From Hyphomicrobiales bacterium (GTDB lineage Bacteria; Pseudomonadota; Alphaproteobacteria; Rhizobiales; Beijerinckiaceae), in the NCBI GenBank assembly GCA_027484655.1, contig JAIXSM010000005.1, positions 1 to 64,000 on the forward strand: a stretch of DNA of 64,000 nucleotides. Direction: 5' to 3'. Each line of letters starts with the position of its first letter. Position 1 is the first letter of the stretch. Positions 45,590-63,923 of the stretch are shown here, piece by piece. Position numbers and translations under genes: made by a program. A model generated the notes under the pieces. The model ran no database searches. It saw only the letters and a list, made by a program, of their open reading frames with translations, and was not told where the DNA came from.

Positions 45590-46270
45590 ATGCCCATTTC
45601 CATCACAGAAGCGCGCGCGTTGTATGACGCGGGCGCGCCGGTCGCGCGCGTCGCGGATCAACTTGGCGTTAGTTTGCGGGCGTTCCGCGATCTGCGGATC
45701 GCCAATGGCTGGCCGCTGCGCGAGCCCGTCGCCAAACCGGCTCCAGTAACTGCGTCTGCGATTGCGAAACCCAGGCGCGCTGCGGGCGCAAAGACGTCCG
45801 CGAAAGGAAAGAAGTCCTCGCGTCAGGCGGGGCGCGGCTCGCGCGCCGCGGTCAAACCTCCCCCGGGGAAGCGCGCCACGGCGCGCGCGCAGCCGCCCGC
45901 TAAGTCCCCTCGGGCGCCGCGCGTCGCCAATGATGAAACCTCTCGGGACACGCGGCAGGATCCCGCGCCCGCCGGCGCGCCGGTGGATGCGCGCGCCCTG
46001 CGCCGCCAACTGGAGGGGCGCCTGCATCGTGAGATTTCAAGCGCTGGCGCAAGGCTCGCCTCCGCGTCGGACGACGCCGCCGAGCGCGCCGCGCGCACGT
46101 TGGCGAGTCTTGTGAAATCGCTCGCCGAATTACGGCGCCTTGAAACGCTCGATCCTTCAACCGCGGGCCAAACCGGAGACGCCGATGCGTGCGACGAACG
46201 CCCCCCGCGGGATCTCGACACCCTGCGCGAAGAGCTGGCGCGCGCTCTTGAGAGATTGTCGCCCGCCTGA
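45590..46270 (+). CDS. GTA/phage terminase small subunit-like protein (gp1-like)
   Basis: 226 aa; N-terminal HTH-like ITEARALYDAGAPVARVADQLGVSLRAFRDLRIANGWP, basic linker, C-terminal helices; directly upstream of TerL. Confidence 0.65.
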   Translation: MPISITEARALYDAGAPVARVADQLGVSLRAFRDLRIANGWPLREPVAKPAPVTASAIAKPRRAAGAKTSAKGKKSSRQAGRGSRAAVKPPPGKRATARAQPPAKSPRAPRVANDETSRDTRQDPAPAGAPVDARALRRQLEGRLHREISSAGARLASASDDAAERAARTLASLVKSLAELRRLETLDPSTAGQTGDADACDERPPRDLDTLREELARALERLSPA

Positions 46271-47576
46271 GGCGCGCGCTCTCCTGCAGGCCTTTCTCGA
46301 TGCGCTGCACCCGCGCGAACTGGAAGCGCTGCTCGCCGCCTGGCCGCTCGCCGCCCGGGCCGACCAGTGGCCGCCGAATGCGGCGCAGGGCGGCGGGCCC
46401 TGGTCGGTCTGGCTGGTGATGGGCGGACGCGGCGCCGGCAAGACACGCACCGGCGCGCAATGGGTGCGCGGGCTGGCGCTGGGCGAACCTGACTTCGCGG
46501 CGCGGCCCGTAGGCCGCATCGCCCTTGTGGGCGAGACAGCAGCCGACGTGCGCGATGTGATGATTGAAGGCGTGTCCGGCATTCTGGCGGTCCACAACAG
46601 GGCCGAGCGGCCCACGTGGGAGCCATCGCGGCGTAGGCTCGAATGGCCAAACGGCGCGATCGCGCAGGCGTTTTCGGCGGAAGATCCCGAGAGCCTGCGC
46701 GGCCCGCAATTCGAGTGCGCCTGGCTGGATGAATTCGCCAAGTGGCGCCATGCGCAGGAGACGTTCGACATGCTGCAATTCGGCTTGAGGCTGGGCGAGC
46801 GTCCGCGCCAGCTTGTCACCACCACGCCGCGCCCCACGGAGGCGCTGCGGCGCCTCATGCAAAATCCCCGCACCGCTTTGTCGCGGGCGTCAACCTACGC
46901 CAACGCGGAAAACCTCGCGCCGTCCTTCATTGAGGCGATTGTGGGCCGTTACGCCGGCACGCGCCTTGGTCGCCAAGAGCTTGAGGGCGAGGTCGTTGAG
47001 GACGCGGAAGGCGCCCTGTGGACCCGCGATCTCATCGAAGCCGCGCGCGAAGAGGCTGCGCCCGCGCTGTGCCGGGTTGTGGTGGCCGTCGATCCGCCCG
47101 CCTCGTCCTCGGGCCGGGCCGACCGCTGCGGCATCGTCGCCGCGGGGCTCGACGCGGACGGCGTGGTGCACGTGCTGGAAGATTGCTCGCTGGGCGCGGC
47201 CCGGCCCGCCAAATGGGCGCGCGCGGCCATCGCGTGCTGCCATCGCCACGAGGCCGACGGCATCGTCGCGGAGGTGAACCAGGGCGGCGACATGGTGAGC
47301 GCCGTGATCCACGAAGCTGACGCCTCAGTGCTTGTGCGGCAGGTGCGCGCCACGCGCGGCAAGTATCTGCGCGCCGCGCCCGTGGCGCAGCTCTATGAGC
47401 AGGGCAGGGTGCGCCATGCAGGCGCGTTCCCTGCGCTGGAAGACGAGATGTGCGCCTTCACCGCCGGAGGCCTCCCGGGCGGCCGCAGCCCCGACCGCCT
47501 CGACGCGCTGGTGTGGGCAGTGACCGCGCTGGCGCTCTCCTCACGCCAGGCGCAGCCGAAAGTGCGGCGGGTCTAA
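46140..47576 (+). CDS. GTA/phage terminase large subunit (gp2); true start probably near 46250
   Basis: WSVWLVMGGRGAGKTRTGAQWVRG Walker A, FECAWLDEFAKW Walker B, VVAVDPPASSSGRADRCGIV nuclease motif. Confidence 0.95.
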   Translation: MKRSILQPRAKPETPMRATNAPRGISTPCAKSWRALLRDCRPPEARALLQAFLDALHPRELEALLAAWPLAARADQWPPNAAQGGGPWSVWLVMGGRGAGKTRTGAQWVRGLALGEPDFAARPVGRIALVGETAADVRDVMIEGVSGILAVHNRAERPTWEPSRRRLEWPNGAIAQAFSAEDPESLRGPQFECAWLDEFAKWRHAQETFDMLQFGLRLGERPRQLVTTTPRPTEALRRLMQNPRTALSRASTYANAENLAPSFIEAIVGRYAGTRLGRQELEGEVVEDAEGALWTRDLIEAAREEAAPALCRVVVAVDPPASSSGRADRCGIVAAGLDADGVVHVLEDCSLGAARPAKWARAAIACCHRHEADGIVAEVNQGGDMVSAVIHEADASVLVRQVRATRGKYLRAAPVAQLYEQGRVRHAGAFPALEDEMCAFTAGGLPGGRSPDRLDALVWAVTALALSSRQAQPKVRRV

Positions 47577-47599: not shown

Positions 47600-48832
47600 A
47601 TGCCCTCTTTTTTCTCCCGCCTGTTGGGCGCGGGGACGCGCGCGCGCGCGCCTCACGACGCCAAAGCCTCCCGCACCGGCGCCTTGCTGGCGCTGCATTC
47701 GCTTGGCCGCCCGCGCTGGACGCAACGCGTCGGCGCAGAACTTACGCGCGAAGGTTTTGAGCGCAACGCAATCGTTTATCGCTGCGTGCGCCTCATCGCC
47801 GAGAACGCGGCGAGCGTGCCATGGCTTGTGTATGAGGATGGCGTGGATGACGCCGCGCATCCGCTCGCGCAACTTCTGGCGCGACCAAACCCCGGCGAGG
47901 CGGGGCCCGCGCTTCTTGAGGGCGTCTTCACCAACCTCGCGCTGTTTGGCAACGCATATGTGGAGGCGGTGTCGCTGAACGGCTTCCCGCGCGAGCTTTA
48001 TTCGCTGCGGCCTGACCGCATGGCCGTTGCGCCCGGCCCGCGCGGCTGGCCCGCCGCGTTCGAGTATCGGCTGGGCGCGGATGTGGTGCGCTACGAGGTG
48101 GAGGCGGACGGACGTTCGCCCATTCTGCATCTCAAACTCTTTCACCCGCTGGATGATCATTATGGTTTTGCGCCGCTGGCCGCCGCGCAAACCCCGCTGG
48201 ATGTCCACAACGCCGCATCCGCCTGGAGCAAGGCGCTGCTTGACAACTCCGCGCGGCCCTCCGGCGCGCTTGTTTATGCAGGCGCTGACGGCGCCTTGTC
48301 GGAAGAACAGTTTGAACGGCTCAAGAAAGAGCTGGACGAAAACTTTGCCGGCGCGCGCAACGCAGGCCGGCCACTGCTGCTCGAAGGCGGGCTTGATTGG
48401 AAGGCGCTGTCGCTCACGCCCAAGGACATGGATTTCGCGCAAGCCAAGCATGATGCGGCGCGCGAAATCGCGCTCGCCTTCGGCGTGCCGCCGCTGCTTC
48501 TGGGATTGCGCGGCGACAACACCCACGCCAACTACGCGGAGGCCAATCGCGCTTTCTGGCGCCAGACGATTCTGCCGCTGGTGCAGCGCACGCAAAAAAG
48601 CTTTGAGCACTGGCTTGCAGCGGCTTTTCCAGGCGCGACGCTCACCGCAGATCTCGACAAACTCGACGCGTTGGCCGATGAGCGCGAAGCCGAATGGCGG
48701 CGCATCGGCGCGGCGAGCTTTCTCAGCGATGACGAAAAGCGCGCGGCGGTGGGGTATGGCAGCGCGGTAAGCTCGGCTCCCATTGCGCGTCGCTACTCGC
48801 CCGACCAACCGCGCGACCAGAACGGGAGATGA
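47600..48832 (+). CDS. GTA/phage portal protein, HK97 family (gp3)
   Basis: 410 aa; FERNAIVYRCVRLIAENAASVPWLVYEDG, FTNLALFGNAYVEAVSLNGFPRELYSLRPDRM, AFGVPPLLLGLRGDNTHANYAEANRAFWRQTILPL. Confidence 0.94.
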   Translation: MPSFFSRLLGAGTRARAPHDAKASRTGALLALHSLGRPRWTQRVGAELTREGFERNAIVYRCVRLIAENAASVPWLVYEDGVDDAAHPLAQLLARPNPGEAGPALLEGVFTNLALFGNAYVEAVSLNGFPRELYSLRPDRMAVAPGPRGWPAAFEYRLGADVVRYEVEADGRSPILHLKLFHPLDDHYGFAPLAAAQTPLDVHNAASAWSKALLDNSARPSGALVYAGADGALSEEQFERLKKELDENFAGARNAGRPLLLEGGLDWKALSLTPKDMDFAQAKHDAAREIALAFGVPPLLLGLRGDNTHANYAEANRAFWRQTILPLVQRTQKSFEHWLAAAFPGATLTADLDKLDALADEREAEWRRIGAASFLSDDEKRAAVGYGSAVSSAPIARRYSPDQPRDQNGR

Positions 48833-49117
48833 ACTTCGTCAGGCAGTGCAGATGCAGCCCATCGCGCGCCGTCGGGAGTTGATGCGCCAGAGACTTTCAG
48901 GGTCGCAGGGAACAGCGGGGGATTCGCGCCAGAGGATCTAGGGATCACAGTGCAGGAGTTCGTGTCCCTGCGATGTCTTGGCAAAATACATAGAGAGTTG
49001 CCTGGCCAATTCATGGATACTAAATTGGAAGACCTGTTGAGCCTCAGGGCGCAGGGAAACAGAGCTGCAGGACAATGCTACAAGCTGCTTAATGAGGGTC
49101 GCTTCAGAAAAAAATGA
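48833..49117 (+). pseudogene. Toxin C-terminal-like open frame in phase with the portal stop codon (no obvious start)
   Basis: Manual translation after TGA at 48830-48832: TSSGSADAAHRAPSGVDAPETFRVAGNSGGFAPEDLGITVQEFVSLRCLGKIHRELPGQFMDTKLEDLLSLRAQGNRAAGQCYKLLNEGRFRKK*. Confidence 0.45.
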
Positions 49118-49141: not shown

Positions 49142-49381
49142 ATGGACATCAAGCCCGGCCTGCCTGGCCTTCTGGCGTTTCTTACGTTTCTGACGCGGAA
49201 TGGCGTTGACTATTATCTTCTGAACACCAGTCCAAACGACGTTCTCGTTTGCTTCGCCAGCCCCGGCGTTCGCATCGAAGTGCGCTTCCAGGAAGATCAG
49301 GTCGATTTCGCGACATTCCACGGCCATGAGGAATGCCGCGACGATTTCGACGCGCTTGAGGATTACATCGTCGACAAGTAG
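49142..49381 (+). CDS. Small acidic hypothetical protein, paralog A (immunity-like)
   Basis: 79 aa MDIKPGLPGLLAFLTFLTRNGVDYYLLNTSPNDVLVCFASPGVRIEVRFQEDQVDFATFHGHEECRDDFDALEDYIVDK. Confidence 0.7.
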   Translation: MDIKPGLPGLLAFLTFLTRNGVDYYLLNTSPNDVLVCFASPGVRIEVRFQEDQVDFATFHGHEECRDDFDALEDYIVDK

Positions 49382-49459
49382 GGGCGTCGCGACATGCGCC
49401 CCTCGGATGCGCGCTTTTTCAAGCTTGTCGAATTGGTGCGACAGCACGATGAGGGATGA

Positions 49460-49603
49460 ATGCCCGATATCTTCGAGCGGCTTGCGGACCCGCGCTTCGA
49501 GCGCGAAATATCGGCGTTTCTGGACGGTTATGTGGGGCGCGGCGACACCAGGCTGAAGGCCGCGGACCTCCGGGCCATATACAAGGAAGCCGGCAAACGC
49601 TAA
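49460..49603 (+). CDS. Small ORF, hypothetical
   Basis: 47 aa MPDIFERLADPRFEREISAFLDGYVGRGDTRLKAADLRAIYKEAGKR*. Confidence 0.35.
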   Translation: MPDIFERLADPRFEREISAFLDGYVGRGDTRLKAADLRAIYKEAGKR

Positions 49604-49664
49604 TCTGACAGTGTTGAAGTCGTTTAGCTGTCTAGATTGTTCCAAGACATTGTCAGGAGGCCAC

Positions 49665-49988
49665 ATGCGCATGTCTGCTCGCGCCGAGGCGAAAATCAGG
49701 GAGATTCTGCAGGAAGAGGCCGAAATGATCGCGCAGGAAAACTATGTTCCTGCCATCGGCTGGATTTTCAACCGCAGGGGCAACGAGGATGATCCCGGCC
49801 CGACGCTGTGTTTTTTCGAGCGCTCCCGCGTTGAGCGGATGCAGCCTTATGAGGACACGGAGCTTCTGATCTACGACAGCCTTCCCCAGTGGCTGGCTGA
49901 CTCAGTGCAGGGCGCTGAGCTCGACCTCGTCGAGGGGAGTTTCAACTTCGTCCGCGATGGCGTCATCATTCGCCCTCTTGAGGTGTGA
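49665..49988 (+). CDS. Hypothetical protein in the portal-protease insertion
   Basis: MRMSARAEAKIREILQEEAEMIAQENYVPAIGWIFNRRGNEDDPGPTLCFFERSRVERMQPYEDTELLIYDSLPQWLADSVQGAELDLVEGSFNFVRDGVIIRPLEV. Confidence 0.6.
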   Translation: MRMSARAEAKIREILQEEAEMIAQENYVPAIGWIFNRRGNEDDPGPTLCFFERSRVERMQPYEDTELLIYDSLPQWLADSVQGAELDLVEGSFNFVRDGVIIRPLEV

Positions 49989-50038
49989 GGGCGACGGAGT
50001 TTAATCGCGGCCCATCATTTCAAACGGACGCTGATTGC

Positions 50039-50278
50039 ATGGACATCAAGCCCGGCCTTTCTGGCCTTCTCGCATTCCTGGCGCTTCTCCAGGAAAAGCA
50101 TCTGGAATATTATCTTTATCACACTAGCCCAGACGACATCACCGTCTGCTTCACCTTGCCGGGCTCCCGCATCGAGGTGCGGTTTGAGGAGACTGTCGTG
50201 GACTGGAGCATCTTTGAAGGAAACGAGGACTGCCGTCGGGACTTCGATACGCTTGACGCGCTGATCTCCGGCAAGTGA
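50039..50278 (+). CDS. Small acidic hypothetical protein, paralog B (immunity-like)
   Basis: 79 aa MDIKPGLSGLLAFLALLQEKHLEYYLYHTSPDDITVCFTLPGSRIEVRFEETVVDWSIFEGNEDCRRDFDTLDALISGK; same length and motif pattern as 49142-49381. Confidence 0.7.
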   Translation: MDIKPGLSGLLAFLALLQEKHLEYYLYHTSPDDITVCFTLPGSRIEVRFEETVVDWSIFEGNEDCRRDFDTLDALISGK

Positions 50279-50431: not shown

Positions 50432-50620
50432 ATGTCCGACGTCGCCGGCCACATCGCCGAGCGCGGCGATCTCGCACATCTCGCGCTGTTCCTGTGGGCC
50501 ACCGGCGCCACGGGATTGCTGGGATTTCTGGTGCGCGAACTTGCCGCCGCCAACCGCCGCTTTGACGCCTTCGTGCGCGAGCTTGCCAGATTCAACCGCA
50601 CCTATGGAGGAGATGAATGA
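50432..50620 (+). CDS. Small membrane protein of GTA cluster (gp3.5-position)
   Basis: 62 aa MSDVAGHIAERGDLAHLALFLWATGATGLLGFLVRELAAANRRFDAFVRELARFNRTYGGDE, one TM. Confidence 0.6.
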   Translation: MSDVAGHIAERGDLAHLALFLWATGATGLLGFLVRELAAANRRFDAFVRELARFNRTYGGDE

Positions 50621-50757
50621 AGCTGTTTGTCATTCCCCGCGCGCGCAGCCGATGGGCGGGCGCCCCCGCCGATTGTGTATTCCGCGCCTTCGTTCAGGCT
50701 CTGGCGCGCCTGCGCGCGAGAGGAGCTTCCCCGGTTGCCCATCGGGCGCCACGATGA
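50617..50757 (+). CDS. 46-aa ORF, ATGA-overlapping with both neighbours
   Basis: MKLFVIPRARSRWAGAPADCVFRAFVQALARLRARGASPVAHRAPR*; ATGA overlaps at 50617-50620 and 50754-50757. Confidence 0.3.
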   Translation: MKLFVIPRARSRWAGAPADCVFRAFVQALARLRARGASPVAHRAPR

Positions 50758-51332
50758 CGCCGGCGCGCAGTTCACGCCACGCGGCGCTTGAGATGAAACG
50801 CGCGTCGCGCGGCCTCGCCAGCGTCGATGAGACAGGCGTATTTGAAGGCTACGCGAGCGTCTTCGGCGAGGTAGATCTCGGCGGCGATATTGTGATGCCG
50901 GGCGCATTCGCGCAAACGTTGCGCAGCCGCGCGGCGTCTGCGGTGCGAATGCTCTGGCAGCACGAAGCCGGCGAGCCTATTGGCGCCTGGCTTTCTCTCA
51001 TTGAGGACAGCGTGGGCCTTAAGGCGCGCGGCCGGCTCAATCTTGATGTTGCGCGCGGGCGCGAGGCGCTTGCGCTGCTGCGGCAGGGCGCGGTGGATGG
51101 GTTGTCCATCGGCTTTCGCGCCGGGCGCGTGAGCCGGGATCGCAAGAGCGGCGAGCGGCGCATTCACACGCTGGAGCTTGTCGAGATCTCCATCGTCACG
51201 TTTCCCATGGCGCCGCAGGCGCGGGTGCATGCTGTGAAGCGCGCATCTGTGGCTGCCGCGCCGGCGTTTGCGCGGCTTGAATGGTTGACAGCCGCCGCAT
51301 CTTTCGGCGCCGCGCTTGATCGCGCGCGCTGA
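50754..51332 (+). CDS. HK97 family prohead protease (gp4)
   Basis: EMKRASRGLASVDETGVFEGYASVFGEVDLGGDIVMPGAFAQTLRSR...MLWQHEAGEPIGAW...LRQGAVDGLSIGFRAGRV. Confidence 0.93.
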   Translation: MTPARSSRHAALEMKRASRGLASVDETGVFEGYASVFGEVDLGGDIVMPGAFAQTLRSRAASAVRMLWQHEAGEPIGAWLSLIEDSVGLKARGRLNLDVARGREALALLRQGAVDGLSIGFRAGRVSRDRKSGERRIHTLELVEISIVTFPMAPQARVHAVKRASVAAAPAFARLEWLTAAASFGAALDRAR

Positions 51333-51395: not shown

Positions 51396-52619
51396 ATGAC
51401 TGCTATTGAAACCAAAGGCGCGGACGCGTTCGGCGACCTTCATCGCGCATTCGCATCGTTCCGCGAGGCCAACGATGAGCGTCTCGGCCAGATCGAACGC
51501 CGTCTCGGCGCCGATGTCATCACGGAGGAGAAGCTTGCGCGCATCGATCGCGCGCTCGATGAGACGCAGCGCCGCCTGGATCAGCAGCTGATCCAGAAAT
51601 CGCGGCCGTTGCTGATGGCCGAAGGCGGCCGCGACAGTGGCGTTGAGCGCGAGCACAAAGCCGCCTTCCGCGCTTACATGCGTTGCGGCGAGAGCCACGG
51701 CCTGAAGGGCATGGAAGAGAAAAACATGAACGCCGCCTCCGGCCCGGATGGCGGCTTTCTTGTGCCGCAGCCCGCTGAGCGGGAAATCCTCATGCGCATG
51801 GCGTCTGTGTCGCCGATCCGCGCCATCGCGTCCGTGCGTGAGATTTCGACCGCGACCTTTCGCAAGGCGTTTCCCGTGACGGGGCCTGTTTCAGGCTGGA
51901 CAGCGGAGATGGACGCGCGCAACCGCACCACAGGGCCACAACTCGCGGACATGACCTTCCCGGCCATGGAGCTGTTCGCGATGCCGGCAGCGACGCAGAC
52001 CATGCTCGATGACGCCGCGGTGGATGTGGAGCAGTGGCTCGCGGAAGAGGTGAACACCGTGTTCGCCGAGCAGGAGGGCGCGGCGTTTGTCGGTGGCGAC
52101 GGGGTGAACCGGCCCACAGGTTTCCTCTCCTATCCGGTTTCCACGCAGGCCGCCTGGAGCTGGGGGCGCATCGCGTATGTGCCAACTGGCGCCGCCGGCG
52201 CCTTCGCCGCCGCCAACCCGTCCGATCAGCTTGTCGATCTGATTTATGCGCTGCGCGCCGGCTATCGCCAGAACGCGCGGTTTGTCATGAACCGCAGAAC
52301 GCAAGCTGCTGTGCGCAAGTTGAAGGCCACCACCGGCGAGTATCTGTGGCAGCCGCCCGCAAGCGCAGACCAGAACGCGACCCTCATGGGCTTTTCTGTC
52401 ACCGAAGCAGAGAACATGCCTGACATTGGGCCGGACGCCCGCGCGATCGCCTTTGGCGATTTCAAGCGCGGTTACCTCGTTGTTGATCGCATGGGCGTGC
52501 GCATTCTGAGGGATCCTTACTCCGTGAAGCCCTTCGTCTGCTTCTACACCACGAAGCGGGTTGGCGGCGGCGTGCAGGATTTTGATGCGATCAAGTTCCT
52601 GCGCTTCTCCGTAGCGTAA
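51396..52619 (+). CDS. HK97-fold major capsid protein (gp5)
   Basis: 407 aa; FLVPQPAEREILMRMASVSPIRAIASVREIS, FVGGDGVNRPTGFLSYPV, VMNRRTQAAVRKLKATTGEYLWQPP. Confidence 0.95.
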   Translation: MTAIETKGADAFGDLHRAFASFREANDERLGQIERRLGADVITEEKLARIDRALDETQRRLDQQLIQKSRPLLMAEGGRDSGVEREHKAAFRAYMRCGESHGLKGMEEKNMNAASGPDGGFLVPQPAEREILMRMASVSPIRAIASVREISTATFRKAFPVTGPVSGWTAEMDARNRTTGPQLADMTFPAMELFAMPAATQTMLDDAAVDVEQWLAEEVNTVFAEQEGAAFVGGDGVNRPTGFLSYPVSTQAAWSWGRIAYVPTGAAGAFAAANPSDQLVDLIYALRAGYRQNARFVMNRRTQAAVRKLKATTGEYLWQPPASADQNATLMGFSVTEAENMPDIGPDARAIAFGDFKRGYLVVDRMGVRILRDPYSVKPFVCFYTTKRVGGGVQDFDAIKFLRFSVA

Positions 52620-52624
52620 GCGCC

Positions 52625-53377
52625 TCAGCGGCTCCACTTCGCCAGAACGCCGTCGATCCAGCCGCGCTGCGGCTGGATCAGGGCCGCCTGGGTGATGGCG
52701 CCGCACGTGCGCTTGCCTTCGCCCGTTGACCACGTGGTGATGGCGATGACGGCGCCATCGCGGGCGAAGATCGGCCCGCCTGAATCGCCCGTGCATGCGC
52801 CAAAACCTTGCTGCCTGGGATCAGACGCCCACAGCAGTATGTTCGACAAGGGCGCACGCGCCGTCAGCGCGCCCATCCGCAGATGGCCGGCTGATTGCTC
52901 GTCGCCCTCACGGGTCAGTCCAAAGCCCGCGATGGTGAACTCCTGGCCTGTCGCCACGCGGCTCTCGCCTGACAGGCGGGCGGGCGTGATAGCAGCGCGC
53001 AGAGGCTCCTTGAGGCGGACCAGCGCGAGATCGATGGAGCGCGCGCGCTTGCGCGCTGCGTCGCGCACGAACTCGGGGTGCACCTCGACGGTTGAAACGT
53101 CGATCAATCGCGGCCGCCCATATGCGCCGTCATTCACAGCGAGCGCAGATGCGCCGTCCACGCAATGCGCCGCTGTCAGCACAACTGTGCGGGACAACGC
53201 GACGCCCGTGCAGAAAGCAGCGGCCTGGCGGCTCTGCTTGAGCACCATCACCGTTTGCGCCGCAATGTGCGCATCCGCGGGTTGCGAGGGGCCGACGAGC
53301 GCCTGCGCCGGAGCGCCCAGCGCTGCGGACGCGGCAAGGATCAACACAGCGCTTCGCCTGTTCACGCTTCGCTCCAA
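52625..53377 (-). CDS. Secreted S1 family trypsin-like serine protease
   Basis: 250 aa; signal peptide RRSAVLILAASAALGAPAQA, VVLTAAHCVDG, RSIDLALVRL, GACTGDSGGPIFARDG. Confidence 0.9.
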   Translation of the reverse strand: MERSVNRRSAVLILAASAALGAPAQALVGPSQPADAHIAAQTVMVLKQSRQAAAFCTGVALSRTVVLTAAHCVDGASALAVNDGAYGRPRLIDVSTVEVHPEFVRDAARKRARSIDLALVRLKEPLRAAITPARLSGESRVATGQEFTIAGFGLTREGDEQSAGHLRMGALTARAPLSNILLWASDPRQQGFGACTGDSGGPIFARDGAVIAITTWSTGEGKRTCGAITQAALIQPQRGWIDGVLAKWSR

Positions 53378-58583: not shown

Positions 58584-61500
58584 ATGGCGACAGTCGTTCT
58601 TCAAACGGTGGGCGCGGCTGTCGGGCAATTTCTCGGTGGACCCATTGGCGCCATTATCGGCCAAACGGTTGGCGCGGTCGCTGGCTCCGCCATCGATCAG
58701 CGCCTGTTCGGACCCAAGGCGCCTGATGGGCCGCGGCTCAACACGATGCCTGCGCTCGCCTCCACAGAGGGCGCGCCCATTCCCGTTGTGTACGGACGTG
58801 CGCGCGTGGGCGGGCAGGTGATCTGGGCGACGCGGTTTGAAGAGACCACGTCGCGCGGCTCTGGAGGCGGCAAGGGCGTCGGCGGCAAGAAGCCAAAGAC
58901 GTTTAACTATTTTGCAAACTTCGCGGTTGGTTTGTGCGAGGGGCCCGTCGGCGGCGTCCGGCGCATCTGGGCCGATGGGCGCGAGCTGGACCAGACGCGG
59001 TTCACGCTTCGCATCTATGACGGAAGCGAGACGCAGCAGGCCGATCCGCTGATCGTCGCCAAGGAAGGCGCGGACAACGCGCCCGCATATCGCGGCCTAG
59101 CCTACGTGGTGTTCGAGCGGATGCCGCTGGCCGATTTCGGCAATCGCATTCCGCAACTTTCCTTCGAGGTGATCCGTCCGACAAGCCGGCTGGCCACGAT
59201 GATCCGCGGCGTCGATATCATCCCTGGCGCCGGCGAGTCCGTTTACGCGAAGGCGCCTGTCTTTGTGCGCGGATCGCTCGGCTCGAGCGTCGCGGAGAAC
59301 CGCAATACGTTCCTTGCGGCGACAGACTTCACAGCGTCCATGAACGCGCTGGAGCAGACATTGCCGAACGCAAAGAGCGCCGCGCTGGTGGTGAGCTGGT
59401 TCGGCGATGATCTGCGCGCGGGCGCCTGCACCATTGCGCCCCGCGTTGAGGGCGCCTCGCGGCAGCCGTCAAGCCGCTGGTCTGTCGCAGGTGTGGAGCG
59501 GGGTCGCGCGCGCGCGGTCAGCGCTCATGACGGCAAGCCCGCGTACGGCGGCACGCCGTCGGACGCCGATGTGATCGCCGCTATTGGCGACCTGCGCGCG
59601 CGCGGTTTGTCGGTCGTGTTCTATCCCTTCGTCATGATGGACGTGCCGGCGACAAACAGCTTGCCCGATCCGTGGAGCGGCGGCGCCTCGCAGCCCGCTT
59701 ATCCCTGGCGCGGGCGCATCACATGCGATCCGGCGCCCGGTCGCGCGGGCTCGCCCGATGGAGCGACGGGCGCCGCCGCGCAAGTTGGTGCGTTCTTCGG
59801 ATCAGCGACGCCCGGCGCGGGCGAGTGGTCCTATCGCAGGTTCATCCTGCATTACGCGCATTTGTGCGCGCGCGCAGGCGGCGTCGATGCGTTTCTCATC
59901 GGCTCCGAGCTGCCGGGCCTCACGCGCGTGCGCTCTGCGGCTGGCGTCTATCCGGCCGTAGACGCGCTGATCACGCTCGCAGCCGAGGTAAAGGCGATTG
60001 TGGGCGCAGCCTGCAAGGTGTCCTACGCGGCGGACTGGACCGAGTATGGCGCCCATGTGCCGGGAAATGGCGCGGAAGTGCGTTTTCCGCTCGACAAGCT
60101 CTGGGGCGCGCCGGCGGTCGATTTCGTCGGAATCGACTTTTATGCGCCGCTGAGTGACTGGCGCGATGGCGATAGGCATCTCGACGCTGCGGAGGCGACC
60201 TCTGTTTATGATCCCGCTTATCTGCGTCGGCGCGTCGCTGGCGGCGAGGCGTTCGACTGGTTCTACAGGGATGCGGCTGCGCGGGCGGCGCAAACGCGTT
60301 CGCCTATCGTCGATGGCTTGCGCGGCCAGCACTGGATGTTCCGCCAGAAGGATCTCGTGGGCTGGTGGTCCAACCCCCATGTGGAGCGCGTGGGCGGCGT
60401 CGAGGCGCCAGCGCGCACCGCTTGGGTTCCGTCCTCCAAGCCGATCTGGCTTGTCGAGATCGGGTGCCCGGCGGTTGATCGCGGCGCCAACGCGCCCAAC
60501 GTCTTTCCGGATCCAAAATCGTCGGAAAGCGCGCTGCCCCACTTCTCGCGCGGCCACCGCGACGACCTCATGCAGGCGCGCGCGCTGGAGGCGCTGATTT
60601 CGCGCTTCGATCCTGCTGCAGACGGTTTTGAGGATAGTTTCAATCCGGTGTCGCCGCTTTATGGCGGGCGGATGGTGGACCCTGCGCGCATTCACGTGTG
60701 GGCGTGGGACGCGCGGCCGTGGCCTGCCTTTCCGCAGCGCCCGGATGTGTGGAGCGATTGCGCCCAGTGGGCCACGGGCCACTGGATCAACGGCCGCGTG
60801 GAAGGCGCCAGTCTCGATGTCGTCATCAGCGAGATCTGCGCGCGGACGCCGGGGATTGACCCGCGCAGCGTGCGGCCGCACGTGGCCGCGTGGATCGACG
60901 GTTTCATCATCGACCGGCCGATGTCGGCCCGGCGCGCGCTGGAGCCGCTGGCGGACCTGTTCGCCTTCGACGGCGTTGTGTCCGGCGGGGCTATCCGTTT
61001 CGAGCCGCGCGGGCGCGCTCGGCCGCGCGTTCTGAGCGAGGACGATGTGGCGCCCGACGAGAGCGGCGTCCTGCACTCGCTCACCCGCGCGCAGGAAAGC
61101 GAACTGCCCCGGCGCCTTGCGCTGTCGTTTCATGACGGCGAGCGCGAGTACCGGCCCGCCAGCGTTCACTCCCGCAGGCTTGAAACGGGCTCTGCGCGCG
61201 AGCTTTCAACCGATGTTCCGATTGTGTTGACCCGGGCGCAAGCCCAGCACCGATGTGACGTCGCGTTGCAGGATGTGTGGTCGGCGCGCGAGCGGATGCG
61301 GATGCGGGTGCGCCCGGGCCTTCTGGATGTGGAGGTCGGAGACGTGATCGCATTGCCGGGCGCGCCGGAGCGGCTGTTTCGCGTGGGCCGAACCGTTGAG
61401 CGCGGGTTGATCGAGATTGACGCGCACGGATGCGAGCCGGCGATCTACGATCACGCGCCGCCCAGACTCGCGCCGGCGACGTTGCCGGCGGAGCGAACGG

Positions 61501-62426
61501 CCGGGCCCGCGCGCGTTGACGTGCTCGATCTGGCGTTGGTTCGTCCGGGGTTGTCCGCGTTGCAGTATGCGGCGATCTACGCCGATCCCTGGCCCGGCGC
61601 GTTCGCCGTGTGGCGGCGCGTGGGCGAGAGTTTTGAGTTCGAGCGGCTGATCGAAAGCCGCGCCGTGGTGGGCGAAACGCTTGACCCGCTCGGCCCCGGC
61701 GTGACCTCGCGCTATGACCGCGCCAACAGCCTGCGCGTACGCTTTTCCGGGGCGCTGTCCTCCCTGGATGAGGCGGCGGCTTTGTCGGGCGCGAACGCGC
61801 TGGCGATCTGTGGGCAGGATGGCGCCTGGGAGGCGTTCCTCTACGCGGACGCCGAACTTGTGGAGCGCGGCGTCTACAGGCTCAGCCGCCTTGTGCGTGG
61901 GCTGGGCCAGGATGAGCTTTCGCGAAGGACCGTGCCCGCCGGCGCGGCGGTGGTGCTGCTCAACGAAGCGGTCGTCCCGCTGGTCACGGATGTGGGCCTG
62001 ATCGGCTCAACATGCGTGTGGCGTTTCGCGCCGGCGTCCACCGATTTCGCGGATGATCTCGCCGTTGAAGTCACCGCGCCCGTTTCGGCGCTGGCCCTGC
62101 GCCCGCTGGCGCCGGTGCGTGCGCGCGCGCGTCGGGTTGCGGAGGGCGTGGCGATTACATTCATCCGGCGCGGGCGCATCGACGCCGACGGTTGGGGGCT
62201 CGCCGAGATTCCACTTGGCGAGGATGCCGAACGCTATCGCATCGATGTGCTTGGCGGCGGCGACGTGAAGCGCACGCTCATCGCCGAGGGCTCGCCGCGA
62301 GCCATCTACACGCACGAGCTCGCGGACTTCGGAGCGCAACAAGCGACGCTCTCCGTCCGCATTGCGCAGATCAGCCCCGTGGTCGGGGATGGTTTCTCCC
62401 GCACGTTCACGTTGCCCATCAACTGA
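58584..62426 (+). CDS. GTA host-specificity/baseplate megatron protein (gp15-like)
   Basis: 1280 aa; GFARVGGQVIWATRFEE-like, YFANFAVGLCEGPVGGVRRIWADGRELD, FVGIDFYAPLSDWRDG, KPIWLVEIGCPAVDRGANAPNVFPDPKSSESALPHFSRG. Confidence 0.96.
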   Translation: MATVVLQTVGAAVGQFLGGPIGAIIGQTVGAVAGSAIDQRLFGPKAPDGPRLNTMPALASTEGAPIPVVYGRARVGGQVIWATRFEETTSRGSGGGKGVGGKKPKTFNYFANFAVGLCEGPVGGVRRIWADGRELDQTRFTLRIYDGSETQQADPLIVAKEGADNAPAYRGLAYVVFERMPLADFGNRIPQLSFEVIRPTSRLATMIRGVDIIPGAGESVYAKAPVFVRGSLGSSVAENRNTFLAATDFTASMNALEQTLPNAKSAALVVSWFGDDLRAGACTIAPRVEGASRQPSSRWSVAGVERGRARAVSAHDGKPAYGGTPSDADVIAAIGDLRARGLSVVFYPFVMMDVPATNSLPDPWSGGASQPAYPWRGRITCDPAPGRAGSPDGATGAAAQVGAFFGSATPGAGEWSYRRFILHYAHLCARAGGVDAFLIGSELPGLTRVRSAAGVYPAVDALITLAAEVKAIVGAACKVSYAADWTEYGAHVPGNGAEVRFPLDKLWGAPAVDFVGIDFYAPLSDWRDGDRHLDAAEATSVYDPAYLRRRVAGGEAFDWFYRDAAARAAQTRSPIVDGLRGQHWMFRQKDLVGWWSNPHVERVGGVEAPARTAWVPSSKPIWLVEIGCPAVDRGANAPNVFPDPKSSESALPHFSRGHRDDLMQARALEALISRFDPAADGFEDSFNPVSPLYGGRMVDPARIHVWAWDARPWPAFPQRPDVWSDCAQWATGHWINGRVEGASLDVVISEICARTPGIDPRSVRPHVAAWIDGFIIDRPMSARRALEPLADLFAFDGVVSGGAIRFEPRGRARPRVLSEDDVAPDESGVLHSLTRAQESELPRRLALSFHDGEREYRPASVHSRRLETGSARELSTDVPIVLTRAQAQHRCDVALQDVWSARERMRMRVRPGLLDVEVGDVIALPGAPERLFRVGRTVERGLIEIDAHGCEPAIYDHAPPRLAPATLPAERTAGPARVDVLDLALVRPGLSALQYAAIYADPWPGAFAVWRRVGESFEFERLIESRAVVGETLDPLGPGVTSRYDRANSLRVRFSGALSSLDEAAALSGANALAICGQDGAWEAFLYADAELVERGVYRLSRLVRGLGQDELSRRTVPAGAAVVLLNEAVVPLVTDVGLIGSTCVWRFAPASTDFADDLAVEVTAPVSALALRPLAPVRARARRVAEGVAITFIRRGRIDADGWGLAEIPLGEDAERYRIDVLGGGDVKRTLIAEGSPRAIYTHELADFGAQQATLSVRIAQISPVVGDGFSRTFTLPIN

Positions 62427-62447: not shown

Positions 62448-63923
62448 ATGAGCGATAGCCCAAACCTGGGCCTGCCTTTCATCGAGGCGGCGCAGGCGCA
62501 GAAGCACGTCACGCATAATGAGGCGCTCGCGATGCTGGACGCCTTCGTCCAGACCACGGTGCTGGCAATGAGTGCGACGGCGCCGCCTGCGCCGCCTGTT
62601 GAAGGCGCCCGTGTGGTGGTCGGCGCCGGCGCTGCGGGCGCGTTCGCCGGCCGCGAAGGGCGCCTTGCGATGTATGACGCGGGCGCCTGGCGCTTCTTTG
62701 CGCCGCGCGCGGGCTGGCTCGTGTGGTCTACCGCCGACCGCTGCGCGTTCGTTCACGACGGCGCTGCGTGGGTTCGCTTCGATGCGAGCATCAGCCGTTT
62801 GCAGCAGCTTTCGCTGCTGGGCGTGGGAACCACGGCGGACGCCACCAATCCGCTGGCGGTGAGCGCCGGCAACGCGCTGTTCACCGCGCGCTCTTCGGGC
62901 GAGGGCGGCGACGGCAGCCTGCGCTTCAAACTCAACAAGGAGGCTGCCGGGCGAACCGTCTCGCAACTGTATCAGACAAACTGGAGCGGTCGCGCCGAGA
63001 CGGGCCTTGTGGGCGACGACCGCTGGCGGGTGCGCGTTTCCGGCGACGGGCAGGCGTGGAGCGATCCGCTGATCGCCTCCACGAGCGGCGTGGAGATTGG
63101 CGGGCAGTTGACGGTCGCCGGCGGGGTGCGCGCGTCTGCGGCGCCCTGGGTCGATCTCTCGTGCGTCTGGAACAACGTCGCCGTCACGTTTGTGGCGGCG
63201 CGGCTTGCGCTCACGGACACAGCGTCCGCCGCCGCCTCGCGCTTTGTGGAATACTGGCGCAACGGCGCGGCGGTGTACGCCGTATCGAAAGCCGGCGCGC
63301 TGCTCAGCGCCAGCGGCGCCAACGCGGCGCCGGGACAGTCGTTCATCGCCGACCCGGATACGGGTTTCACGAACCCCGCCGCCGATACGATTGGCCTCGT
63401 GGTGGGCGGCGTCGAGCAGGCGCGTCTCACCGCGGGCGGCACGTTCGCCGTGGGCTCCGCGGGCGCGGACTTTGGCCGCGTCTGGAAAGCCGTTTTCTCG
63501 GGCAACGTCGCAACCGTCGTGCAGGCAGGCGTCGTGAACGGGAACACAGGCGCCACCGCCTCCGCCTTAATCTCCCTCATATCGGGCGCGCCCAACGTGT
63601 TCGTGAACATGGAGGTGAACAACGGCGCCGGTAATGGTTTCGGCCAGGAGACCTTCGGGGCAGGCGTCACCTCGCACCGCGTCGTCTTCGGCGGCTCTGA
63701 GCGCTTCCGGTTCGCCGCCTCCGGCGACCTGCAGATGGGCGGCGCGAACACGGTGCTCACCGCCGCGCGTCATCTCGTTCTGCGCGCCTACCCACGCACG
63801 GCGGCGCCGGCGGGCTCCATCGTGGGCGAGACGATCTTCATCACCAACCCGGCCTCCGGCTCGCCGCGGCCATTCCACTGGACGGGCGCCGCGTGGCTCG
63901 ACGGCGCGGGCGTCGCTTTCTGA
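62448..63923 (+). CDS. DUF2793 domain-containing tail fibre/spike-like protein
   Basis: 491 aa; SPNLGLPFIEAAQAQKHVTHNEALAMLDAFVQTTVLAM...VVVGAGAAGAFAGREGRLAMYDAGAWRFFAPRAGWLVW; C-terminal repetitive beta-rich region. Confidence 0.88.
   Translation: MSDSPNLGLPFIEAAQAQKHVTHNEALAMLDAFVQTTVLAMSATAPPAPPVEGARVVVGAGAAGAFAGREGRLAMYDAGAWRFFAPRAGWLVWSTADRCAFVHDGAAWVRFDASISRLQQLSLLGVGTTADATNPLAVSAGNALFTARSSGEGGDGSLRFKLNKEAAGRTVSQLYQTNWSGRAETGLVGDDRWRVRVSGDGQAWSDPLIASTSGVEIGGQLTVAGGVRASAAPWVDLSCVWNNVAVTFVAARLALTDTASAAASRFVEYWRNGAAVYAVSKAGALLSASGANAAPGQSFIADPDTGFTNPAADTIGLVVGGVEQARLTAGGTFAVGSAGADFGRVWKAVFSGNVATVVQAGVVNGNTGATASALISLISGAPNVFVNMEVNNGAGNGFGQETFGAGVTSHRVVFGGSERFRFAASGDLQMGGANTVLTAARHLVLRAYPRTAAPAGSIVGETIFITNPASGSPRPFHWTGAAWLDGAGVAF

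Follow-up and report, generated by a model that had tools for sequence, protein, structure and literature searches.

Tandem 79-aa proteins in an RcGTA-type gene transfer agent cluster are very probably immunity proteins to a portal-linked toxin

Two genes for similar 79-aa proteins lie between the portal and prohead protease genes in a 64,000-nucleotide stretch of DNA from a Hyphomicrobiales bacterium of the Beijerinckiaceae (contig JAIXSM010000005.1, positions 1 to 64,000; hereafter the window) (Table 1). Based on its gene content, we identify the locus as a cluster for an RcGTA-type gene transfer agent (GTA), a domesticated virus-like particle that delivers DNA, with a putative toxin/immunity insert between the portal and protease genes. 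The window portal aligns with that of RcGTA (Rcc01684, PDB 6TBA) over residues 11-386 with an E-value of 7e-116, and genes for an adaptor, a tail tube, an RcGTA-type tape measure protein and a baseplate are also present. The g3.5-like gene of ordinary relatives overlaps the portal stop or leaves hardly any gap to it, whereas in the window a 1600-nt insert separates the two.

Table 1 Features of the GTA cluster and its insert, in window coordinates
Feature	Position	Strand	Evidence
GTA large terminase (g2-like)	46185..47576	+	Pfam Terminase_6N 1.9e-32, Terminase_6C 4.5e-20
GTA portal (g3-like), 410 aa, core to about residue 390	47600..48832	+	Phage_portal 5.7e-85
Linker motif RRYSPDQPRDQNGR, portal core to toxin	48788..48829	+	YSPDQPR...G[RQ]WT in relatives' portal-toxin fusions and orphan cassettes
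In-frame TGA ending the portal, at conserved linker tryptophan	48830..48832	+	Sequence; comparison with relatives
Interrupted portal C-terminal extension with TOX64 (domain 48920-49114)	48833..49117	+	TOX64 profile from discovery loci, window member 4e-27
Immunity gene 1 (imm1, IMM79 family, 79 aa), probable	49142..49381	+	IMM79 HMM 2e-25
47-aa ORF, maybe remnant	49460..49603	+	Heuristic gene call; no relatives among inserts
107-aa gene, perhaps for immunity of a different type	49665..49988	+	Weak similarity to small proteins in the same context; no Pfam match
Immunity gene 2 (imm2, IMM79 family, 79 aa), probable	50039..50278	+	IMM79 HMM 1.5e-26; AlphaFold2 pLDDT 89.9
g3.5-like 62-aa gene	50432..50620	+	Conserved neighbour in most relatives
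Prohead protease (g4-like)	50754..51332	+	Peptidase_S78 1.7e-35
Major capsid protein (g5-like)	51396..52619	+	Phage_capsid 1.3e-83
g15-like protein, RcGTA-type cluster marker	58584..62426	+	GTA_TIM 3e-142, Rcc01698_C 7e-23

The initial annotation had described the 79-aa frames as small acidic paralogs with nearly identical 5' DNA, downstream of a toxin-like fragment, and had read them as accumulating immunity genes. Its description of the pair holds: both frames are 79 aa long, they flank the 107-aa gene, and their products are acidic (pI 4.3 and 4.4). The two proteins share 46 of 79 residues (58%), with a local alignment score of 242, while 2000 shuffles gave a mean of 24, a standard deviation of 4.5 and a maximum of 53. 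Identity at the DNA level amounts to 154 of 237 positions and is concentrated at the 5' end, where 28 of the first 30 nt agree, versus 126/207 in the remainder. The suggested comparison of substitution rates between the copies gave a dN of 0.35 and a dS of 1.14, a ratio of about 0.31. In a tree of 42 relatives, imm1 and imm2 fall together with a single protein from a genome of the same genus (L024), imm1 having the longer branch (0.74 versus 0.17). The intervening 107-aa gene has no match in 199 genomes of the family and no accepted Pfam, NCBIfam or PHROGs family; it shows only weak similarity to small proteins at the same position elsewhere.

The family of the two proteins is here named IMM79. 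A scan of genome contigs with the window protein alone returned 0 loci, and one with an alignment of closer relatives returned 17 named loci. No family scored above its curated cut-off for IMM79 in Pfam or NCBIfam, PHROGs gave no accepted match, and neither IMG/VR nor INPHARED contained a member. AlphaFold2 predicts an alpha-beta4-alpha fold, which would suit a binding protein, as the immunity reading would have it; Foldseek found no significant counterpart among PDB structures. IMM79 genes form tandem arrays of up to six copies, and most members are found outside GTA clusters, adjoining a second small domain, which we call TOX64.

TOX64 is also encoded in the window, directly upstream of the pair. 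The supposed toxin-like fragment, whose stop lies 24 nt before the start of imm1, runs open for 94 codons before that stop. It continues the portal frame straight after the portal TGA and therefore has no plausible start of its own. It does contain a predicted toxin domain, TOX64, but is in fact the interrupted C-terminus of the portal. The window portal ends in RRYSPDQPRDQNGR; in relatives the corresponding motif, YSPDQPR...G[RQ]WT, is followed by a glycine-rich stretch and then by the toxin. Since the relatives read through this linker into the tryptophan and the toxin, the TGA sits at the conserved linker tryptophan. The TOX64 domain, as recovered with a profile made from the fragment, is 64-65 aa long (65 aa in the window), is C-terminal on several carriers, and is basic (pI 9.2), whereas the IMM79 proteins are acidic. 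Its AlphaFold2 model is all-alpha, with a mean pLDDT of 91.5, and had no significant match in the PDB (Foldseek). We found no accepted Pfam, NCBIfam or PHROGs family for TOX64, no catalytic motif or known fold, and no match in IMG/VR.

The association between the two families is tight. IMM79 follows 12-47 nt (domain to domain) past TOX64 in 27/27 TOX64 domains of the discovery loci, two of which are weak or partial. Homologs occurring mainly away from toxins had been named as evidence against an immunity role; the opposite was found, with 32 of 39 IMM79 genes located within 1.5 kb downstream of TOX64. The pairing persists across carriers. In L037 an uninterrupted portal-TOX64 frame on a partial portal copy precedes IMM79, in L029 TOX64 is joined by the same linker to the prohead protease, and elsewhere it is carried by short leader proteins. 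In Caballeronia, TOX64 (2e-16) forms the end of a plasmid-encoded Rhs-repeat protein, with an IMM79 homolog (3e-17) encoded after it. A second TOX64 cassette, complete with leader and full-length linker, is found in the same genome as the window, on contig C63 (L176:5893-6690), between the pyruvate dehydrogenase genes lpd and pdhC; a 168-aa protein after this TOX64 resembles two diverged IMM79 units. This cassette was established by an alignment search and is independent of a weak search with a hand-made linker peptide. In all these settings, the toxin forms the C-terminus of portal, protease, Rhs or leader-bearing proteins. A type II toxin-antitoxin module was considered and rejected, as the toxin is not a free-standing gene and no antitoxin family matched. 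The immunity reading of the initial annotation thus gains support from the linkage to TOX64, the tandem arrays and the pair on the Rhs protein, and these genomic patterns make it very probable that the two 79-aa proteins counteract a toxin formerly joined to the GTA portal.

Portal-toxin fusions extend well beyond TOX64. Among about 65 portal loci, which are the best-scoring by similarity rather than a random sample and have heuristic gene calls, some 20 genomes have a portal extended by at least 60 aa past the core, nearly all of them with the linker. The extensions contain RNAse_A_bac (PF18431, 9e-17) and CdiA_C (PF18451, 3.5e-19), DUF6883 (8e-12) occurs on a downstream partial portal copy, and Colicin_E5 (1.1e-9) is found on portals of another alphaproteobacterial family (L155/L156). 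By eye, the extensions of L159 and L161 resemble HNH-type nucleases, with no Pfam match for either. Several loci have incomplete portal copies downstream that bear additional toxins, and IMG/VR contigs with GTA-like portals provided more fusions (L182, L205 and L234). Fusions with a long open frame and the conserved linker are numerous and span several families, and most carriers belong to the Beijerinckiaceae (Microvirga, Rhabdaerophilum, Alsobacter and Methylobacterium MAGs). The RNase A extension had no match in IMG/VR or INPHARED, nor did the linker in INPHARED; given these results and those for IMM79 and TOX64, no phage source was found in the collections searched. In two close relatives (L074 and L075), the contigs break off just past the portal core, which would be expected of a variable or repeated portal 3' end.

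The portal core and its extension behave as separable modules. In seven genomes the portal cores are 96-98% identical and the C-terminal toxins differ, some being unrelated. The class of the toxin matches that of the immunity gene in 61/61 pairs found, with zero cross-pairing and with 10 further toxin cases, which lack any listed immunity gene, standing outside this count. The pairs comprise 21 of the RNase A-type with a first immunity family, 10 of CdiA_C with a second, 4 of an unnamed 316-317-aa extension class with a third, and 26 of TOX64 with IMM79. Extra genes before g3.5 accompany extensions of at least 60 aa in 16/16 cases and others in 9/35 (Fisher p = 3e-7, one genome being entered twice). 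For the immunity gene linked to the RNase A-type toxin, an identity as CdiI_2 was discarded, the match (0.057) being under the cut-off of that family.

This organisation recalls polymorphic toxin systems, which, in the part of the survey by Zhang et al. (2012, PMC3482391) that was searched, are described as having a constant N-terminal carrier, exchangeable C-terminal toxins and an immunity gene directly downstream, together with tandem polyimmunity loci, orphan cassettes and toxins common to CdiA and Rhs; the same part contains no mention of GTAs. The layout is the same here, with a GTA portal as the carrier. The window and its relatives combine a constant carrier with swapped toxins, cognate immunity genes downstream and occurrence of the toxin on other carriers, and the partial portal copies with toxins resemble the orphan modules of Rhs and CDI systems. 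As with CdiA/CdiI, RNAse_A_bac and CdiA_C domains are employed, here also on GTA portals, but the carrier and the delivery route differ. The MuF toxins of temperate phages are borne by a head protein of the DNA-packaging module and followed by small immunity-like genes, and their packaging in the phage head has been proposed (Jamet et al. 2017, PMC5576092). In the present case, by contrast, the portal or the prohead protease carries the toxin, within a GTA rather than an infectious phage; a Pfam search of the portal carrier found Phage_portal and a sub-threshold SHOCT, with no MuF domain (PF04233 or PF06152). In RcGTA of Rhodobacter capsulatus, the 396-aa portal stops at the end of the core (Bardy et al. 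2020, PMC7296036; PDB 6TBA). The portal and the marker families described here are homologous to those of RcGTA, whose portal lacks a toxin extension. In the open-access literature we found no paper on polymorphic toxins on GTA portals, though priority is not certain, and the single mention of toxins in a 2024 review of GTAs concerns genes over-represented in Bartonella particles.

From these genomic comparisons we conclude that the locus represents a polymorphic toxin-immunity system carried by a GTA portal. The IMM79 family, its linkage to TOX64, the portal fusions, the exchange of toxins and the interruption are direct results of the computation. The full account that we consider likely is that IMM79 confers immunity to a TOX64 domain once fused through the linker to an RcGTA-type portal, that the fusion has been disarmed here while immunity was kept, and that the toxin would be delivered by the particle. 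In this model, which covers Alphaproteobacteria with GTAs and chiefly the Beijerinckiaceae, the portal core stays constant, and the C-terminal toxin is swapped together with the downstream immunity gene. The crown of the portal lies inside the phage head. With the portal C-termini facing the head in the 12-mer, the toxin would end up inside the particle together with the DNA. A portal-attached toxin would need release, perhaps by cutting in the linker, where a cleavage site is only putative, and perhaps by the prohead protease; a linker common to portal, protease and leader carriers fits, but does not prove, a shared role in targeting or cleavage. The toxin would then reach the recipient with the DNA or after it, such that recipients without the cognate immunity protein are harmed and kin survive. 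In the window, the in-frame stop in the linker would disarm the fusion and the tandem immunity genes persist, which would guard against armed relatives and possibly against the genome's own second TOX64 cassette.

The observations can also be read as the debris of cassettes with no function in the particle, whereby a passing Rhs/CDI-type cassette recombined into the portal 3' end, with the GTA as a mere landing site and the fusions accidental. TOX64-IMM79 arrays do occur at other chromosomal sites, and several stops in the linker region as well as the partial portal copies show decay. However, the many long and open fusions with a linker conserved across several families, the exchanged toxins and class-matched immunity genes on nearly identical cores, and the use of the same linker on the prohead protease, which is another head protein, render an accidental origin rather unlikely. 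That the 79-aa proteins are accessory or structural components of the GTA is suggested by their place and orientation within the cluster, and is hardly credible given that IMM79 is present in 24/298 sampled genomes of the family versus 189/298 for the GTA portal; such patchy presence led us to reject a role in the GTA machinery, and the members outside GTA clusters, most of the family, lie beside TOX64, one of them after the Rhs toxin of Caballeronia.

The TGA itself might be a site of programmed readthrough, which would let a few portal subunits bear the toxin so that the 12-mer still assembles. In-frame stops occur at the same two linker codons (Gln-Trp) in five genomes (L114, L029, L105, L111 and the window), and, past the TGA, the window's toxin frame has stayed open and well conserved, while that of L111 is open behind two stops. 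Nevertheless, a frameshift in L114 and a further stop in L105 behind the linker are as in decay, uninterrupted fusions exist in many relatives, and one change suffices to turn a Trp or Gln codon into a stop, such that hits of this kind are likely; we therefore consider readthrough improbable. The Gln-Trp pair can be viewed as a disarming hot spot or as a readthrough site. The linker stops that recur in four other genomes indicate that part of the family is disarmed, and being armed may be favoured by selection only at times. As the genomes are drafts, the TGA in the window could also be an assembly error.

GTAs kill their producer and do not spread themselves, and why bacteria keep them is a long-standing question. 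If the proposed model is true, portal toxins and the immunity linked to them would let GTAs pay off directly in competition and would account for the hypervariability of the portal 3' end, and supposedly selfless particles could also be weapons. We are evenly divided on the wider generalisation that the GTAs of many Alphaproteobacteria are armed, their portals carrying exchangeable toxins to recipients and immunity making the exchange kin-discriminating or competitive. Polymorphic toxins would gain a delivery route derived from the phage head, distinct from MuF and testable in cultured Beijerinckiaceae, and TOX64 and IMM79 would represent toxin and immunity families without a Pfam or NCBIfam entry.

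Further observations concern the surroundings of these genes. Across different genera, the same chromosomal sites repeatedly harbour orphan TOX64-IMM79 arrays or solitary IMM79 genes; with gene names assigned by eye, these sites are the hrcA-pckA interval, the lpd-pdhC interval and a position next to icd (L028, L033, L034, L040, L032 and L043; L035 and L036; L025, L030 and L031). In the window, a minus-strand gene (52625-53377) between the capsid and adaptor genes resembles by eye a trypsin-like serine protease; many relatives have reverse-strand genes of about 240-300 aa in the same place, which are absent in several toxin-bearing ones. Directly after the g15-like gene lies a 491-aa ORF (62448-63923), which by its position may encode a tail-fibre protein that sets the recipient range of the GTA.
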